NCBI RefSeq assembly: GCF_009797935.1
Contig: NZ_VOLC01000008.1
Location: forward strand, 62,001-126,000
Length of the DNA: 64,000 nucleotides
From: Lunatibacter salilacus
Lineage (GTDB): Bacteria; Bacteroidota; Bacteroidia; Cytophagales; Cyclobacteriaceae
Direction: 5' to 3'
Shown here: piece after piece, positions 19,400 through 25,765 of the stretch
Position numbering within the stretch: position 1 is the stretch's first letter
Layout: the number at the start of each line of letters is the position of its first letter
Program-made: the position numbers and the translations under genes
The notes under the pieces: generated by a model
The model's database searches: none
Seen by the model: only the letters and a program-made list of their open reading frames with translations
Told to the model about the DNA's origin: nothing

Positions 19400-20272
19400 A
19401 TGAAAAACAAATTACTTCCACAAGTGTACTTTTTCGTTATTTCCTTAGGTCTTTTTTCCTGTTTTGGGTCAGAAAATAATGAGCTCGAATCCTATCTTCC
19501 ACTAGAAGATTGTGTAGGAATTAGTTATGGCGATACTATTTTTTATGTCCGTGAAGGTGTAGATTACAAGGTACTGCCTCAAAATATGTTAGAGGGAACT
19601 TTCCGTTCTCTTCCTGAAGGGTTGTCCATTGACCCGAACACGGGAGAGATTGACATAAATGCCAGTGAAGCGGGTCTAAAATACAAAATCATCCTAGAGA
19701 ATGAAGCATTACAAACCGCCTGTAGTTACACCCTGACGATAAGTGGTATTAATTACATTGATAGCCCATTTGTCTTAGATCAGGGGGAGACTCAGGTCAC
19801 ACCCACATACAATGCATCTATCAGTGGTGTCATTCCATGTGATTTGGGAGATCACCAGGAAGAATGCCATTTTGATTTAAAGGGGCCGGAGGGCAACCGG
19901 ATCTCTGATTTGGGTGTTGCTGTCAACGAGCGAAATGGAGCGATAGATTTGCAGCAGACAGTAGACAATGATTTTTTTGGACAAAACCCTACAAACGGAC
20001 AGGAGGTAGACGTGGAGATGTATTATCGTCTGCCCGATGAAAGTGACGGTGCGCTTAATTCCATAGGGTTGCGGTTTTTTTACTTTGAGACGATGGGGGA
20101 TGTGCCGCCCCAGTTATTGGAAGAGATTGAGGACAGGCAGACACAAATTTTCGGTGATGAGGATTTTAATACTAATCCCTTCTTCCGAGTTGCTCCTAGC
20201 CGATCCCGTCTTGCGCCTCCTAGTGGCAGAGCGAGGCCTCCATATTTGGTGGTTGTCTCAAGGTTAAGATAA
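19400..20272 (+). CDS. putative lipoprotein with Ig-like (He_PIG-type) domain, CHAT locus
   Basis: The 290-residue protein has a lipobox leader (LGLFSC, Cys21). The SLPEGLSIDPNTGEIDINAS stretch around residues 72-92 is the hallmark of putative-Ig (cadherin-like) domains found in bacterial surface proteins. The middle contains a second beta-rich region with a Cys pair (PCDLGDHQEECHF). The C-terminal 50 residues are rich in Arg and Pro and end without recognisable sorting signal. I do not recognise a named family for the whole protein. It is the first gene of a tight unit: the CHAT gene starts 7 bp after its stop. A role as an outer-membrane or periplasmic recognition partner of the CHAT protein is an inference from position only. 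Confidence 0.75.
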   Translation: MKNKLLPQVYFFVISLGLFSCFGSENNELESYLPLEDCVGISYGDTIFYVREGVDYKVLPQNMLEGTFRSLPEGLSIDPNTGEIDINASEAGLKYKIILENEALQTACSYTLTISGINYIDSPFVLDQGETQVTPTYNASISGVIPCDLGDHQEECHFDLKGPEGNRISDLGVAVNERNGAIDLQQTVDNDFFGQNPTNGQEVDVEMYYRLPDESDGALNSIGLRFFYFETMGDVPPQLLEEIEDRQTQIFGDEDFNTNPFFRVAPSRSRLAPPSGRARPPYLVVVSRLR

Positions 20273-20279
20273 TTTCTGA

Positions 20280-23096
20280 ATGAAAATCGTTTATAGGGTT
20301 CTTCTTCTTCTTGTCATTCTGGATTTGATGACCTTATCGCCCCTTTTTGCCCAATCCGCAAAGGTCATTAATCTATATGAAGAGGGACTTCGCCTTTTTG
20401 AACTGCCAGAACCTACTGAAGAGACGGACAGCGTCGCTATACGGATTTTTCAGGAGCTATTAAGAATTCCTTCCGTAGAGGTCCCCAGAGAAATACAGTT
20501 TGACTCCCAACAAAAATTAGGGATATTGTTTTTGATAGAAGGAAAACCGGAGCGGGCGATCCGAAGCCTTTTGGTGGCAAAGAATTTTTTTGAGCTAGGT
20601 GGATTGACAGATACCCTTGTATTCAAACCTTTGTTGTATTTAGGCGACAGTTATTTTATGCTCAACAAGGGAGACAGTAGTATTTTTTTCTTAAAGCAGG
20701 CAGAACGCATCTTGGAGCAAAAACAATCCATCGATGATAAGGGAAGATTATATAATTCCTTGGGCGTCACCTACTATGAAATGGGTAATTATGTTCAGGC
20801 AATCACCTATTTTTCAAAAGCAAAGTCGCTGGTATGGAAAGACACTTCTTTGCCTCCTCCAAACGGAAATGCGCTTTTCGCCATAGAGAGCTTTCAAAGC
20901 AATGAGGCATCGGCTTACGCCAACTTGAGGGAATTCAAAAAGGCAATTTCACTTTACCTTGATTTGCTTGAGTTTACCTCCAAGCCAGATGCCATTTACA
21001 GTAAATTGGCATCCTTATATGTGGAAAGAAACCTTCCTGATTCTGCGGCATTTTACATGGAACAGATTCAGTCCGACACCGAAAGGGAGTTATTGGTCAA
21101 CCGAAATCTTGTAGCTGATATTTACATTGCACAAGGAAAATATGCCCAGGCTGAAAGTATGTTGCGAAAGCTGATTTCGGAAAAAGGAGCTATAGAGAAA
21201 GAAAATTTTGATAATACTTACCAGCTGGGTATATCTTATAAATTATTGACAAAAGTTTATCTTGAAAAGGGCGCTTACGCACCTGCTTTGGAGGCAATTC
21301 AACAAGCAATAGTCCGATTTAGTGAAGGCTTCTCCTCGCTGGATTATCGGGTAAACCCCGATCCGAGTTCCAACAATTGGGGGATGCTTGCTCTTTTTGA
21401 ATGTTTATTGATAAAAGCAGATGTTTTCCTGAAAGCGGCAAACTCCGGATATAGTGATGACTTTTTCAACTTGGGTTTTGATACCTTCCGGGCTGCTTTT
21501 TCTATGGTCTATTACATGGGTAATTTTTATGACAATGAAGAAGCCCGGCTTTTTTTGGGAGAAAAGACCCAGGCGGCTTATCGTGATGCCATAGTGGCTT
21601 CAATGAAAAGATATAGTGCCACGGGAGATAAAGGCTTTGCTTGGCAGGCATTTAATTGGACGGAGGAAAGTAAATCCTCAGCTCTTGAGCTAGCGCTAAA
21701 TGAGCAGTTAACACGAACTGAGTCCGGAGTTTCACATTTTCAGCGGCAGGAGGAAAGGGACCTAAAAATGATGCTTTCCAAGGCTAACCGACAGATTATT
21801 GAAAATGAGGACCCGGAACACATCCGATATTTGGAAAATGAGATACGGGATATTCGTCTTGCCCTTTCCCGTATTTATTCTACTTATCAGCGTCCGACAA
21901 CTACCGTGGACACCACATGGGTGAAAGATAGGCTGGATCACACCTACATTTCAGGTGTTACAAATCAAAGTAATACCGCACTATTATCCTTTTTCTGGGA
22001 AGGAAACGTGTTGTACAGATTCATCATCACAAATGACGGGATTCAGGCCACCGAAATTCGGGAGGCAAATAAATTGAATAGTGAATTAGATTCTTTACAA
22101 GAGTTACTATTGTCTTCATCGGGGAAGAGTCGCAGCAAATTGGATCAAGTCAGCAGAGAGGTTTTCCGTATTCTATTTTCTGATGTGGAATCCTTGTTGG
22201 GGTCTAAAGCAGCTTGGGTCGTATTTCCGGATGGAAAATTGACAAATCAACCCATAGAGATGCTGATTAATTCACGTGGGAAATATTTAGTCGAAAATCA
22301 TGTGATTTCCTATCAGTTTTCAGCTAAATTTTTGGCATCGTCTCCTTTAATAAAGTCCGATTTGCTCCAAAACGCGGTGGGTTTTGCACCGTTTAATAAA
22401 ATAGGGAATTCAGTTGGGAAAGAGGATTTCTCTGTGTTGCCTTTTGCAGAAGTAGAGTTAGAGGGGGTTAACGGACAAAAATATTTACATAATCAAGCCA
22501 CCAAACAACAGTTTTTGGCAGTGGTAGAAGATGCTTCTATCATCCATTTGGCAACGCATGCCAAAGCGGAATTAGAAGATCCCGATAGAGCTTTTATTGC
22601 TTTTTTTCCTGAAGAAGATGATTTCCGGCTCTTTTACGACGAATTGTATTCACTGGATTTGCAGGAAGCCCGTCTTGTGTTTTTAAGCGCCTGCGATACC
22701 CATTCGGGAAATATCCTGAGTAGTGAAGGGCTTATCAGCCTATCAAGAGCGTTCGCTTATGCGGGTTGCCCCAATATTGTCGGGAGTATTTGGAAAGCCG
22801 AGGACAAGGTAGTTGCCTACCTCAGTCATCGATTTTATAAAAATCTTGAAGATGGCTTTTCCATGGCTAAAGCACTACAGCTTGCCAAGGTGGAACTGCT
22901 GCAGGATCCTACTATGGCCCAATACAATCACCCGTACTTTTGGAGTAGTCTCGTCTTTATCGGAGGATTATCCCCGGAAGTTAATTCCATACCTACATGG
23001 AAATGGATATTGATTTTCTTACTTTCTTTGAGTATTTTCGTCTGTATATGGCTATACCTGCGCAAATTACGTTCTAATAAGATGTATGTAAAATGA
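20280..23096 (+). CDS. membrane-anchored TPR-CHAT caspase-like protein
   Basis: The 938-residue product has a Sec leader (ends LFAQ), about 450 residues of tetratricopeptide repeats (for example LYNSLGVTYYEMGNYVQAIT and ADIYIAQGKYAQAESMLRKL), a coiled-coil-like linker, and a C-terminal CHAT domain from about residue 600. The caspase-like dyad is intact: IHLATHA (His760) and FLSACDTHSG (Cys805), followed by EGLISLSRAFAYAGCPNIVGSIWKAED. A single transmembrane helix (residues about 907-928) and a basic tail close the protein, so by the positive-inside rule TPR and CHAT domains face the periplasm. CHAT proteins are peptidases, some of which act in defence (for example the Craspase partner of type III-E CRISPR). 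Here the partners are lipoproteins and an ECF sigma locus. Confidence 0.92.
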   Translation: MKIVYRVLLLLVILDLMTLSPLFAQSAKVINLYEEGLRLFELPEPTEETDSVAIRIFQELLRIPSVEVPREIQFDSQQKLGILFLIEGKPERAIRSLLVAKNFFELGGLTDTLVFKPLLYLGDSYFMLNKGDSSIFFLKQAERILEQKQSIDDKGRLYNSLGVTYYEMGNYVQAITYFSKAKSLVWKDTSLPPPNGNALFAIESFQSNEASAYANLREFKKAISLYLDLLEFTSKPDAIYSKLASLYVERNLPDSAAFYMEQIQSDTERELLVNRNLVADIYIAQGKYAQAESMLRKLISEKGAIEKENFDNTYQLGISYKLLTKVYLEKGAYAPALEAIQQAIVRFSEGFSSLDYRVNPDPSSNNWGMLALFECLLIKADVFLKAANSGYSDDFFNLGFDTFRAAFSMVYYMGNFYDNEEARLFLGEKTQAAYRDAIVASMKRYSATGDKGFAWQAFNWTEESKSSALELALNEQLTRTESGVSHFQRQEERDLKMMLSKANRQIIENEDPEHIRYLENEIRDIRLALSRIYSTYQRPTTTVDTTWVKDRLDHTYISGVTNQSNTALLSFFWEGNVLYRFIITNDGIQATEIREANKLNSELDSLQELLLSSSGKSRSKLDQVSREVFRILFSDVESLLGSKAAWVVFPDGKLTNQPIEMLINSRGKYLVENHVISYQFSAKFLASSPLIKSDLLQNAVGFAPFNKIGNSVGKEDFSVLPFAEVELEGVNGQKYLHNQATKQQFLAVVEDASIIHLATHAKAELEDPDRAFIAFFPEEDDFRLFYDELYSLDLQEARLVFLSACDTHSGNILSSEGLISLSRAFAYAGCPNIVGSIWKAEDKVVAYLSHRFYKNLEDGFSMAKALQLAKVELLQDPTMAQYNHPYFWSSLVFIGGLSPEVNSIPTWKWILIFLLSLSIFVCIWLYLRKLRSNKMYVK

Positions 23097-23102
23097 CGTG
23101 CA

Positions 23103-23915
23103 ATGAAGAAATATTCAGCAATATTTTTGTTCAGTCTGTTGCTCCTGATGCTAGGCTGCACAATAACGGATGATGGACAAGCTGAAGAAGAGCTCGAAAC
23201 CGAAAGCTTGGGAGATTCTTTTTTGAGAAGTTTGCAGGCTGTCATGGCAACTGAACTTTCCCAACCAATTGACCGCTTAGTCCAAGTGAGATTTTTCAAT
23301 CACTCGGAGACTGTTCCCAAAGGATATTCAAATTTTTATTATGATCAGCAGGGCAAACAGGTGCTGGTTGTAGGTTTGAATATGAATGCGGATACTACAG
23401 GCATCACGCTTTCAGATTATGATGAAAGGGGTAATAGGGTTCATCTGATAAATTTCATTAAGCGAAATGGGGTATTTGAGTGGGAGGTGGCAACCGAATA
23501 TGTGTATAATTCGCTGGACATGGAAATCGAAACCTATAGCTTAAGGCCTGATAGAGAAAGAATACTGCTTATCGAAAAATCATATGATTCCATTGGAAGG
23601 TTGATTGAAAGCCGCTTTGGGATGGAGGGATATAGATACGCCTATGATGAAAACGGTAGAATAAAGACCGAAAGCTGGATTATTTATGGGAATCCAGACG
23701 CAACTTTTAGGGAATTAATTTATCGGTATGATGACGCAGACCGGATGATAGCTAGGGAAGTTGCTTATGGAAATCAGGATGACGGACCTAATTTAGTGCC
23801 ATTGTATCAGTACGCTTATGACGAAAAGGGGAGACTGTCCCAAATGAAGGAATTTGATACCTCCTTTGGAATATCCCTTAGAATTACAAGAGAATATATC
23901 TATTCTGGGGAATGA
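23103..23915 (+). CDS. YD-repeat-like lipoprotein, CHAT locus
   Basis: The 270-residue protein starts with a lipobox leader (LLMLGC, Cys19), then an acidic segment, then repeats of the RHS/YD kind: YDERGNRVHL, YDSIGRLIESRF, YDENGRIKTESW, YDDADRMIAREV and YDEKGRLSQMKEF. These repeats form beta-strand spirals in RHS toxins and teneurins; this protein is far too short for an RHS shell and has no toxin tip. It starts 6 bp after the CHAT stop, so all three genes form one operon. It may be a cell-envelope binding partner or a substrate of the CHAT protein; neither is shown by the sequence. Its end lies 9 bp from the end of the convergent membrane-protein gene. Confidence 0.82.
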   Translation: MKKYSAIFLFSLLLLMLGCTITDDGQAEEELETESLGDSFLRSLQAVMATELSQPIDRLVQVRFFNHSETVPKGYSNFYYDQQGKQVLVVGLNMNADTTGITLSDYDERGNRVHLINFIKRNGVFEWEVATEYVYNSLDMEIETYSLRPDRERILLIEKSYDSIGRLIESRFGMEGYRYAYDENGRIKTESWIIYGNPDATFRELIYRYDDADRMIAREVAYGNQDDGPNLVPLYQYAYDEKGRLSQMKEFDTSFGISLRITREYIYSGE

Positions 23916-23924
23916 AAATTTTGG

Positions 23925-24713
23925 TTACTTAATCAAAGAAAGCATCTTGATTTTTGCCCGGTAGCCCAAGGGGAAATTCCGGTTGTATTTGTGTGCTGAA
24001 TCTTGAGTGATGTCCGAAATTAGTGCGTAACCCTCAGTGAAATTATTCATCTGTATATTTGCCAATGCAGTATAAAAATCCCGTTCATCCTGTAATTCAC
24101 CAGATTGATCCAGTGAATTTCGCTGGTTGAGCAAATCCAAATAGATAAGGGCCTGTTGGGGTTTGTTAGTCTCCAATGCTGAAATACCCAAAAGAAGTAA
24201 CTCGTCTTTGGAAAGACCTTCCAATGCCTCTACTGGGAATACAGCAAGGACCGCCGCAAAATCGCCACTTCGGTATAGGTCTTGGATGCTGGATGCATTT
24301 TCAGAGTCCCCCCTAAAGGAGGAGATTTCATAGGAGAGGAATTTATCTTGATAAAGATCAGTTCCAGAAAGGCTACTGAGGTTTAATACACCACCTATCG
24401 CTATAAAGAACAGAATACTGGCTGCTATTCCTATCCATTTTGCAAAAAAAGGGATCCTTACTACCCGAGTTGTATCAAATTTCTCAGATACCTGATTGCC
24501 ATTATTTCTGTTTAGAAAGCCATTGTGACTTTGCTCGACAAGATTCCGAATAGCCTTTACCCGTACAGTTTGCCTACTCCATTCATATAGGGCAAGCTTC
24601 TGTTTCAATTTAGTTTCACGCATCAGCCGATTTTCCAACACCTGTACTCCCGCTGCTTCCAAATTACCATCCAGGTAATCTATCAATATTCGATCATCTT
24701 CACTGTAATCCAT
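23925..24713 (-). CDS. anti-sigma-like single-pass membrane protein with TPR-like periplasmic part
   Basis: The 262-residue product has an N-terminal cytoplasmic region (ILIDYLDGNLEAAGVQVLENRLMRE, the start pattern of Bacteroidota anti-sigma factors), one transmembrane helix (residues about 92-112) and a periplasmic helical part with TPR-like hairpins (YRSGDFAAVLAVFP, LLLGISALETNKPQQALIYL, FYTALANIQMNNFTEGY). The zinc-finger cysteines of classical anti-sigma factors are absent. Its start overlaps the ECF sigma gene by 14 bp, a coupling typical for sigma/anti-sigma pairs. Inference: it holds the sigma factor and reads the periplasm, where the CHAT protein and the lipoproteins also are. The 9-bp convergent gap to the CHAT operon supports one functional locus. 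Confidence 0.78.
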   Translation of the reverse strand: MDYSEDDRILIDYLDGNLEAAGVQVLENRLMRETKLKQKLALYEWSRQTVRVKAIRNLVEQSHNGFLNRNNGNQVSEKFDTTRVVRIPFFAKWIGIAASILFFIAIGGVLNLSSLSGTDLYQDKFLSYEISSFRGDSENASSIQDLYRSGDFAAVLAVFPVEALEGLSKDELLLLGISALETNKPQQALIYLDLLNQRNSLDQSGELQDERDFYTALANIQMNNFTEGYALISDITQDSAHKYNRNFPLGYRAKIKMLSLIK

Positions 24714-25314
24714 GACTTAAAGCTGTTTTTACTTTTTCGTATAATTCTTCACTGGACTCAATCTTCGCGGTAAGTGCCTTCATGCACTTGTATTTTTTAT
24801 TCCGCAGGACCTGTTCGCTGGAGAGTTGTTCTTTTTCCACGATTTCTTCCATGGAGAGATTGTCAAAATAAAATAAGGTAAGAATAGATCTACACCCTTT
24901 TCCTAGCTTATCAAAGAGTTCCATCATCATCTTATACCCTTCCATCTTAATTAATTCCTCACTATAATCCCCTATTTCAATCTCTTTTTCACTTTCGAAA
25001 AGTATATCCCGTTGGACTCTGTTCTTCCGCCTTCTCAACTCGCTCAGCCATACATTTCTGTTGATGCTATAGAGCATAGATTTGATACTGGCATCTCCAC
25101 GATATTTGTTATCATGCACCATGTTGACGAATACAACCATGGTTTCTTGAATCGTATCTTGTGCATCTGTTTGACTACCGCTGTTTTGAAGGATGAAGAA
25201 CTCCAGCATGCTGTAATGAACCTCATAAAGCCTATCGAGTGCTTGGTTGATGGTTTGGGCATTTCGGAGCTCTTCCAAAATTTGGACATCATTCCACAAT
25301 GGATCTTGCTTCAT
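24700..25314 (-). CDS. ECF-type RNA polymerase sigma factor
   Basis: The product (204 residues from the ATG at 25314; a TTG at 25359 would add 15) has region 2 (TDAQDTIQETMVVFVNMV, then SIKSMLYSINRNVWLSELRRRKN, the -10 recognition helix) and region 4 (LGKGCRSILTLFYFDNLSMEEIVEKEQLSSEQVLRNKKYKC, the -35 helix-turn-helix). There is no region 1 or 3, as in ECF sigma factors. The ATG is preferred because it gives the usual N-terminal length and avoids a rare start. The next gene overlaps by 14 bp and is the candidate anti-sigma factor. Targets probably include the adjacent CHAT operon, though no promoter with the expected spacing could be assigned. Confidence 0.9.
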   Translation of the reverse strand: MKQDPLWNDVQILEELRNAQTINQALDRLYEVHYSMLEFFILQNSGSQTDAQDTIQETMVVFVNMVHDNKYRGDASIKSMLYSINRNVWLSELRRRKNRVQRDILFESEKEIEIGDYSEELIKMEGYKMMMELFDKLGKGCRSILTLFYFDNLSMEEIVEKEQLSSEQVLRNKKYKCMKALTAKIESSEELYEKVKTALSHGLQ

Positions 25315-25765
25315 ATATAAGTATGGTCCGGCGGGTAATTTGTAACCTGTGATTTTCAAAATTACACAATAGGGTTCGTTTGTTTATGAAAACTGGGGAT
25401 TTTCCAGTATTAAATTAGTATCACATTTATAAGAATACGAATAGTATGTTTACGGGTTCCTGAAACTTTTGAATGGGTATTTTAATGGTTTCTGCCGCAA
25501 TCAAAGTTAAAATAATTATTTTTAAACCTTAACTTGCAATGGGCTTTTGACCTCGCTCACTCTTGGAACAAGGAACCGACGTTTGTAAAAAGGGACATTC
25601 GGGGCTTTGTGACAATTAGGCTGATGTATGCAGTACAAATGCATGTTTTTCGACTAATCGAAAATGGAAATGCTTCAATAGTGATAAATAGCTAAACCCG
25701 AATTCAACAAAGAAATCTTTCATCTTGCCGATGAATATCCCTAAAAAACCAAAAAAGAATAAGTT
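25315..25765. other. intergenic region without gene
   Basis: These 451 bases between the divergent sigma and aminotransferase genes contain no supported gene, hairpin terminator or repeat. An AATAGTATG word at 25441-25449 resembles the AATAGTATT box noted elsewhere and could belong to the sigma gene's promoter region. Confidence 0.5.

Follow-up and report, generated by a model that had tools for sequence, protein, structure and literature searches.

The 64,000-nucleotide stretch of the Lunatibacter salilacus genome analysed here (the window) contains a compact locus where the gene of a TPR-CHAT protease is found next to the genes of an extracytoplasmic function (ECF) sigma factor and a putative transmembrane (TM) anti-sigma factor. 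The locus is best read as a regulated-proteolysis circuit in which a periplasmic, Craspase-like site-1 protease would free the sigma factor, a reading that is given a probability of roughly 0.7. It is carried by a match between the predicted cleavage site in the anti-sigma factor and a residue in the specificity region of the protease, by the genomic linkage of the two genes, and by the predicted fold and location of the proteins. An earlier reading of the same DNA (the original prediction) had proposed that lipoproteins sense a cell-surface event, that the CHAT peptidase processes the anti-sigma factor or a lipoprotein, and that the sigma factor drives a response.

In the proposed circuit the sigma factor would be held at the inner membrane by the cytoplasmic N-terminal part of the TM-TPR anti-sigma factor, and the TPR-CHAT protein would be anchored in the same membrane as a separase/Csx29-like protease directed towards the periplasm. 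An envelope or surface signal would activate the protease, perhaps via its own TPR superhelix or via the first lipoprotein of the locus, here called LP1; both the signal and the role of LP1 are guesses. CHAT would then make the site-1 cut in the anti-sigma factor after Arg134, in a loop of 15 residues that connects the TM helix to the TPR domain. Cytoplasmic proteases and an RseP-family site-2 protease could subsequently release the sigma factor, which would transcribe its own gene and, in some relatives, also the LP1-CHAT operon and a lipoprotein gene, thus giving positive feedback. The genome encodes an M50 site-2 protease (PF02163, 227 bits, C9:100631-101869), but its presence gives weak support since the family is found in all 14 control genomes too.

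Covariation of the Predicted Cleavage Site and the Predicted Protease Pocket

The covariation was analysed in 57 pairs of anti-sigma factor and CHAT protease. These include L043, where the sigma/anti-sigma pair lies six genes from CHAT and which is not among the 41 linked loci described below. L309, whose CHAT gene is cut by the fetched stretch, and L074, L075, L105, and L107-L109, whose CHATs have no TM anchor, were excluded. The site classes were assigned by eye from the anti-sigma loop sequences. Beyond the TM helix the loop carries an Arg followed by a small residue in 37 pairs, a Lys in two related pairs, and a Met or Leu followed by a small residue in 18. The loop of the window protein reads ...YEISSFR-GDSE..., the Arg being Arg134, and was left flexible in the AlphaFold2 (AF2) model. 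Loops of the Met class, to which the C66 and C11 paralogues of the same genome belong, read, for instance, ...GLPVPM-S... or ...SVPM-D....

Residue 726 of the CHAT protein follows these classes. It is Glu in all 37 Arg pairs and Met or Val in the two Lys pairs, and the 18 Met/Leu pairs have Thr (8), Leu (4), Ser (3), or Ala (3), so that it is non-acidic in all 20 non-Arg pairs. Among the 373 CHAT columns it is the only one with no residue common to the Arg class and the rest. Residue 842 behaves similarly. All 37 Arg pairs have Asp here and the two Lys pairs have Glu, and in the Met/Leu pairs Glu occurs 11 times, Asp five times, and Thr and Ser once each, which means that Asp is replaced in 15 of the 20 non-Arg pairs. 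In the AF2 model residue 726 sits on the helix 723-729 after the strand 699-703, and residue 842 opens the helix that follows the strand 833-836. The P1 specificity of clan CD peptidases, that is for the residue preceding the scissile bond, is set by alpha1/L1, L4, and L5, and MALT1 reads a P1 Arg with Asp365 (alpha1), Asp462 (L4), and Glu500 (L5) (PMC4357240).

As the loop residue co-varies with a CHAT residue in a region known to determine P1 specificity, the anti-sigma factor is the likely substrate of the protease, which narrows the original choice between the anti-sigma factor and a lipoprotein. From these sequences we infer that CHAT cuts the anti-sigma factor, and that it does so after Arg134. 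Six control anti-sigma factors came from genomes where CHAT has no match at E 1e-60 (G132, G173, G071, G094, G084, and G168 are not included), and none of the six has Arg or Lys at the aligned column. CHATs outside such pairs mostly keep Glu726 (68/70) and Asp842 (67/70), and Arg specificity therefore looks ancestral.

Linkage of the Protease with Sigma/Anti-sigma Pairs

A set of 106 loci was compared, consisting of the window, five further loci from its own genome, 20 from the family, and 80 from the order and phylum. They were drawn from the better CHAT matches and are not a random sample; L132 and L073 were removed by hand from the linked pairs. The L. salilacus genome has six CHAT matches, and all five CHAT proteins of about 930-1075 amino acids are encoded at most two genes from a sigma/anti-sigma pair. 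With 37 ECF sigma hits in the 6.79-Mb genome, a sigma gene would be found near a given CHAT by chance in about 4% of cases, and under this simple chance model its presence beside five of five large paralogues has a p of about 1e-7. The sixth match (L006/L011, C2) is in a protein of 2126 amino acids and has no sigma pair nearby.

In 41 of the 106 loci a pair lies at most two genes from CHAT, distributed as 5/6 in the own genome, 13/20 in the family, 8/40 in the order, and 15/40 in the phylum. Sigma hits occupy 53 of 605 gene slots at most three genes from CHAT vs. 9 of 483 further out (p 2.7e-7). The orientation of the pair relative to CHAT varies, 31 being on the opposite strand and 11 on the same strand. 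Conserved synteny of CHAT with the sigma/anti-sigma pair, the absence of which in relatives would have refuted the original prediction, is seen within this genome and in a fair share of the relatives compared; the third gene is not a general part of the system (see below).

In single-sequence comparisons, made with 30 of the 37 sigma factors of the genome, the linked ones resemble each other closely. With L166 as query the other four linked sigma factors rank first, and with that of the window they hold ranks 1, 2, 3, and 5, the unlinked L171 coming in between. A profile of the anti-sigma factors finds five matches above 195 bits in the genome and the next one at 37 bits, a gap which is inflated because the profile contains those five. 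One CHAT subfamily of family f41 (L122-L126 and L128) keeps a constant set of neighbours, among them a 317-amino-acid gene upstream and a sigma/anti-sigma pair three genes off; its anti-sigma factors contain a conserved V-R-[SA]-K stretch.

Structure and Location of the CHAT Protease

The product of the second gene matches CHAT (PF12770) in Pfam with 162.7 bits (cut-off 24) over residues 624-895 and also contains TPRs. With this match and the His/Cys dyad it belongs to the CHAT peptidase family, and it is predicted to be an active peptidase. His760 and Cys805, which the original prediction described as intact, are indeed present and are invariant among 18 aligned linked relatives. CHATs outside the pairs keep the two residues in 69/70 and 68/70 cases. 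One could imagine that CHAT is a pseudo-protease or scaffold whose TPRs bind those of the anti-sigma factor and modulate it without cleavage, and the occurrence of TPRs in both partners fits such a role. The conservation of the dyad, within as well as outside the pairs, makes this very improbable.

The protein starts with a hydrophobic leader and ends with a TM helix at about residues 909-927 and a basic tail. By simple hydropathy an N-terminal hydrophobic segment is seen in 41 of 41 linked CHATs and a C-terminal TM helix in 35 of 41, and for this reason a periplasmic protease is expected. The TPR domain of the anti-sigma factor and the CHAT domain should accordingly be found on the same, periplasmic side, in keeping with the original prediction; a cytoplasmic CHAT was ruled out by the leader and the TM helix.

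The AF2 model of the window protein has a mean predicted local distance difference test score (pLDDT) of 82.5 and is of low confidence around Cys805. Its best structural match is the Craspase protease Csx29 (Foldseek E 5.4e-14; VIA-align Z 26.9, root-mean-square deviation (rmsd) 10.4, 547 residues). The protease domain of separase (5fc2) aligns to residues 452-900 with Z 20.8 (299 residues, rmsd 3.1). Plain helical-repeat proteins in the VIA-align list score at least as high as whole separases (Z about 22) and DdvA (8rot, Z 19.8), and only Csx29 and the separase protease domain are therefore given weight there. When a repeat-free profile of the CHAT domain was compared to the PDB, DdvA was the best match (E 1.3e-7), followed by Craspase CHATs at about 2e-5; the matches of profile A1 in the PDB were mostly TPR proteins. 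CHAT proteins are numerous in these bacteria: two genomes of the same family, G016 and G022, have 13 and 14 CHAT matches, respectively, a strong expansion of this protease type.

The Sigma Factor and the Anti-sigma Factor

The sigma gene matches the sigma70-ECF model TIGR02937 with 60.2 bits (cut-off 42.9), and its product has both the sigma2 and the sigma4 region expected of an ECF sigma factor, Sigma70_r2 being above and Sigma70_r4_2 below the cut-off. In the list of open reading frames (ORFs), which the original prediction followed, the gene starts at TTG 25359. This start would make the protein about 15 residues longer than most orthologues (202-211 amino acids; one has 234). ATG 25314 is preferred since the orthologue lengths and N-termini fit a protein of 204 amino acids better; the overlap with the anti-sigma gene stands. 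Two cysteines in the sigma4 region, residues 156 and 192 in the numbering of the 219-amino-acid ORF, are invariant in 20 aligned linked sigma factors.

No Pfam or NCBIfam family is found over the cut-off in the anti-sigma protein of the window. Its aligned relatives contain TPR_2 (13/21) and zf-HC2 (2/21), and neither is detected at E 0.01 in the protein of the window. With a mean pLDDT of 86.2, the AF2 model displays helices at residues 5-72, a TM helix at 89-113, a low-confidence loop at 125-139, and a TPR-like part from residue 140. In this model the anatomy is as expected for an anti-sigma factor that spans the membrane and has its TPR domain in the periplasm: an N-terminal cytoplasmic helical domain and a single TM helix, in a protein encoded together with a sigma factor. 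It is predicted to bind and inhibit this sigma factor. A fold search with the model gave no match at E <=0.001, those listed being mostly TPR proteins, and did not identify the N-terminal domain. The family of this domain is unproven, since zf-HC2 occurs in only 2 of the 21 and no fold match was found there. A FecI/FecR type was ruled out, as the FecR domain is absent from the three Pfam families listed for the window anti-sigma factor (E up to 1).

A Promoter Motif in LP1-bearing Loci

The regions upstream of the sigma and LP1 genes share the motif GGTTACA-N16-CGACTAA. Allowing two mismatches, it is found in 39 loci ahead of 10/40 sigma genes, 5/18 LP1 genes, 0/43 CHAT genes, and 10/381 other genes. 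None of L008, L062-L066, or L103 has a match at this level. The motif was derived from the same sequences as those tested, which is only partly offset by controls of spacing and permutation in 17 loci (277 kb) picked because they have LP1 or are close kin. When up to one mismatch is allowed, these loci have 14 matches with a spacing of 16 and none with 10-15 or 17-23, and 300 letter-permuted motifs gave a mean of 0.08 and a maximum of 2 matches. All 14 are at the starts of locus genes, namely six sigma genes, three LP1 genes, four genes of an intervening lipoprotein, and one gene of 153 amino acids (L043). In L043 and L071 the LP1 match falls 15 and 7 base pairs (bp), respectively, inside the longest ORF listed.

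The sigma factor probably drives parts of its own locus, the motif being present in part of the LP1-bearing relatives. In the window the candidate ahead of the sigma gene has 33 bp from the start of the -35 element to ATG 25314, vs. 39-44 in six relatives, and the -10 element lies only 3 bp before the ATG, nearer to it than in the relatives.

The Lipoproteins

LP1 has a lipobox with Cys21 and a weak Ig-like match to He_PIG (E 0.12, below the cut-off). Its conserved C-terminal tail reads ...RPPYLVVVSRLR and is RPPYLVIVxRLQ-like in the nearest relatives. Among the 106 loci LP1 has 20 matches, of which 18 lie immediately upstream of CHAT, and the LP1-CHAT/anti-sigma-sigma arrangement is seen again in L008, L042, L044-L048, L067, L071, and L103. 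At a guess, LP1 may be a ligand, a restraint, or a substrate of the protease. Several of the LP1 orthologues in L008 and L042-L046 contain long runs of Asp, which the window copy does not.

The third gene encodes an RHS/YD-repeat lipoprotein. A search of the ORFs of the first 26 loci (later loci were not included) returned only the protein itself, and it was for this reason rejected as a core part of the system. In several relatives its slot is filled by another lipoprotein of about 239-245 amino acids, encoded on the opposite strand. A role for the lipoproteins as sensors of a cell-surface event, as originally proposed, is not supported; LP1 occurs in 20 of 106 loci, and the third gene is without relatives in the first 26.

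Counter-evidence and Alternative Explanations

Several observations weigh against the proposed circuit. The class assignment is not fully reproduced by an automatic alignment of the first 41 linked anti-sigma factors, which agrees for 30/31 Arg, 2/2 Lys, and 6/8 Met/Leu rows. In that alignment L053, an Arg row, has Thr at the site column, and L101 and L238, both Met rows, have there an Arg found 2-4 residues upstream of the Met; taken literally these are three exceptions among the first 40 pairs. The class changes are also few, three on the 40-row tree and four on a quick 57-row tree, and the former has only two independent pairs whose branches are well supported, each agreeing with the expected direction. 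The Met/Leu class has two to three origins on the best trees; the well-supported branches force one (p 0.0507 in the approximately unbiased test (p-AU) for one clade, first eight rows). With so few independent changes a phylogenetically corrected significance cannot be claimed, and an independent-contrast test was dropped.

The small number of changes, and the fact that a one-clade tree for the first Met/Leu rows is not rejected, are what would be expected if the match reflected no more than common descent, with Glu726 lost in two or three CHAT clades and the neighbouring anti-sigma loops differing by chance. This is quite improbable. Column 726 alone separates all classes, the Lys rows included, and it belongs to alpha1, a region implicated in P1 specificity; the Arg class always has Asp842, which is mostly replaced in the others, and Glu726 is kept in nearly all CHATs outside the pairs.

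Further, the six linked loci that were left out for want of a TM anchor keep Glu726 and Asp842, yet their anti-sigma factors have no site at the expected place. An Arg at the site column is also found in anti-sigma factors not beside CHAT, in genomes with a CHAT match elsewhere; other unlinked anti-sigma factors from such genomes are without it. The loose motif R[GSTN] is enriched in the linked pairs (37/58; shuffled mean 17.4, p 2e-4) but occurs in 3/6 control anti-sigma factors as well, and was rejected as a stand-alone marker. As a separate observation, spotted only after the exclusion, an F-R-S stretch is common to the anti-sigma factors of L105, L108, and L109, some 40-57 residues beyond the TM helix, and is a possible site for a soluble periplasmic CHAT.

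When it comes to linkage, no nearby pair is found in 32 of the 40 order loci. With L168, L169, or L170, the three more divergent linked sigma factors, as query, unlinked sigma factors rank among or above the linked ones: L168 and L170 each omit the other from the top eight, and L169 puts L173, L187, and L177 above L167. Unlinked CHATs also show an N-terminal hydrophobic segment (63/73) and a C-terminal TM helix (39/73), so that such a topology does not set the linked ones apart. In the window the promoter motif is absent ahead of LP1, and the genome-wide matches of the motif show no excess (30 vs. 179 for the reversed control), for which reason nothing was inferred about a genome-wide regulon. 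Of the originally proposed sigma-driven response, a probable expression of parts of the locus itself is supported, by the motif ahead of sigma, LP1-CHAT, and lipoprotein genes in some relatives. Finally, in one Met clade a subtilase gene lies between the anti-sigma gene and CHAT in four of five members (Table 1), and the subtilase is a possible alternative cutter.

That subtilase, the promoter motif ahead of LP1-CHAT and lipoprotein genes in some relatives, and the conserved tail of LP1, which could be a substrate or ligand, would also fit a system in which CHAT and the sigma pair belong to one regulon without being enzyme and substrate. The sigma factor would then do no more than transcribe the CHAT operon, CHAT would be an effector that cuts LP1, some other lipoprotein, or a surface protein of foreign origin, and the anti-sigma factor would be inactivated by another protease or by TPR-mediated binding. 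Such an arrangement is considered unlikely, as it does not predict the match between loop and residue 726 (Glu in 37/37 Arg pairs and 0/20 others), nor the linkage at loci without LP1. Cleavage of the anti-sigma factor by CHAT is the preferred explanation.

Relation to Known Systems

In the Craspase of type III-E CRISPR (clustered regularly interspaced short palindromic repeats) systems, the TPR-CHAT protein Csx29 cuts the anti-sigma factor Csx30 and thereby relieves CASP-sigma (PMC10028731; PMC9729208; PMC11106740). The likeness to the window system includes the TPR-CHAT build, an anti-sigma factor as target, a site in a flexible loop, the published P1 residues (Met, Leu, and Ala), and CASP-sigma motifs within its own locus. 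Craspases cut after Leu, Met, or Ala (PMC11106740). In separase Asp2151 reads a P1 Arg, and a Craspase CHAT has Lys670 in its place (PMC9729208). Unlike the window system, Craspase is activated by target RNA through Cas7-11, and the former has a signal peptide and a TM anchor that predict a periplasmic protease, a transmembrane anti-sigma factor, and lipoproteins. No direct repeats of 23 or more bases within 200 bp were found in window positions 10000-40000, and no PADLOC family in 13 neighbourhood proteins; Cas7-11 was not searched for genome-wide. Membership in type III-E was ruled out by these two negatives together with the membrane topology.

DdvA of Myxococcus xanthus, which acts on DdvS (PDB 8rot, 8rw5), is a transmembrane anti-sigma factor with a CHAT domain that controls an ECF sigma factor (PMC4374960; PMC12288465), and it was, as mentioned above, the best PDB match to the CHAT-domain profile. 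It differs in having CHAT and anti-sigma parts in one chain; in the window they are encoded by two genes, and the DdvA type was rejected on this ground. Separase shares the helical-repeat superhelix and the caspase-fold protease and cuts after Arg (PMC9729208), but is eukaryotic, has cohesin as substrate, and is controlled by securin. The ECF54 group has CHAT and subtilase genes in its genetic context, and proteolysis has been proposed for it; the passage concerned gives neither mechanism nor site (PMC8999054). The subtilase-bearing Met clade described above recalls this context.

In outline the window system is best read as working like DegS/RseA, and in its chemistry like Csx29/Csx30. DegS is a serine protease. 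With RseA/DegS/RseP and RsiW-type proteolysis (PMC10028731) the circuit would share a transmembrane anti-sigma factor, a proposed periplasmic site-1 cut near the membrane, and a site-2 family that is present. The window system differs in having a caspase-fold cysteine protease in the place of DegS and a TPR anti-sigma factor.

No description of a periplasmic CHAT/anti-sigma pair or of a match between pocket and site was found in the titles and beginnings of abstracts among the literature matches listed, and no assigned role for this kind of CHAT; a prior mention in gkaa1229 or gky475 is possible. The word undescribed, used in the original prediction, holds in part; CHAT near ECF54, anti-sigma cleavage by Craspase, and the CHAT-bearing DdvA were known. 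The sequences suggest that similar circuits recur in many related bacteria with a matching cutter and cutting site. A broader proposal, to which somewhat less than even odds are given, is that a widespread and unnamed class of periplasmic caspase/separase-like site-1 proteases frees ECF sigma factors throughout a phylum, probably Bacteroidota. The pocket (Glu726/Asp842) and the scissile residue would co-evolve as insulated codes (Arg, Lys, and Met/Leu), Craspase being a cytoplasmic offshoot recruited by CRISPR and DdvA a fused form.

A large subset of CHATs is in this way provided with a concrete predicted substrate, scissile bond, specificity code, and set of partner genes. A caspase-fold enzyme would join the proteases by which anti-sigma release is set off at the envelope, Craspase and DdvA would gain a possible common background, and a natural set of orthogonal protease/substrate pairs would be on offer. 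With insulated codes, as in the broader proposal, several parallel circuits, five in this genome, could run without cross-talk.

Organization of the Locus

The five-gene layout of the original prediction (lipoprotein, TPR-CHAT, YD-repeat lipoprotein, and the convergent anti-sigma/sigma genes) agrees in spacings, overlap, and domains with what is found. Spacers of 7 and 6 bp separate the three genes on the + strand, 9 bp lie between the convergent genes, and the sigma and anti-sigma genes overlap by 14 bp. Positions are listed in Table 1.

Table 1. Features of the CHAT/sigma locus in the window, and subtilase genes in related loci (positions within the respective stretch).
Feature	Position	Strand	Remarks
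LP1 lipoprotein gene, 290 amino acids	19400..20272	+	ORF list; first gene of the CHAT operon
TPR-CHAT protease gene, 938 amino acids	20280..23096	+	Signal peptide, TPR superhelix, CHAT 624-895, C-terminal TM helix, basic tail
Codon of Glu726	22455..22457	+	Predicted to determine P1 specificity; on caspase-fold helix alpha1 (723-729)
Codon of catalytic His760	22557..22559	+	Invariant in 18 aligned relatives
Codon of catalytic Cys805	22692..22694	+	Invariant in 18; low confidence in AF2 model
Codon of Asp842	22803..22805	+	Predicted as second residue of the P1 pocket; L5 region, following strand beta5
C-terminal TM helix of CHAT protein, residues 909-927	23004..23060	+	Hydropathy; AF2 helix 906-934
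RHS/YD-repeat lipoprotein gene, 270 amino acids	23103..23915	+	ORF list; RHS_repeat match
Anti-sigma gene, 262 amino acids	23925..24713	-	Helices 5-72, TM 89-113, exposed loop 125-139, TPR 140-261
Codons of Arg134-Gly135 of anti-sigma factor	24309..24314	-	Predicted CHAT cleavage site; low-confidence loop between TM and TPR
ECF sigma gene, 204 amino acids from ATG 25314	24700..25314	-	ORF list: TTG 25359, 24700-25359, 219 amino acids
Candidate sigma-dependent promoter GGTTACA-N16-ATACTTA	25318..25347	-	Ahead of sigma gene; 3 mismatches to consensus of relatives
Subtilase gene (PF00082), L009	4475-5758		Between anti-sigma and CHAT genes
Subtilase gene (PF00082), L101	4495-5877		Between anti-sigma and CHAT genes
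Subtilase gene (PF00082), L234	6362-7867		Between anti-sigma and CHAT genes
Subtilase gene (PF00082), L238	6598-8181		Between anti-sigma and CHAT genes

In some related loci the gene of a giant protein (at least 2066-2161 amino acids within the fetched stretches) adjoins the sigma gene on the side opposite CHAT, as in L052 (10604-17014), L054 (from 11980), and L057 (83-6283). Repeats of the Big_5, SprB, and FG-GAP types are found in the giant protein of L052, together with a weak type IX sorting tail, and it is a possible target of the regulon.

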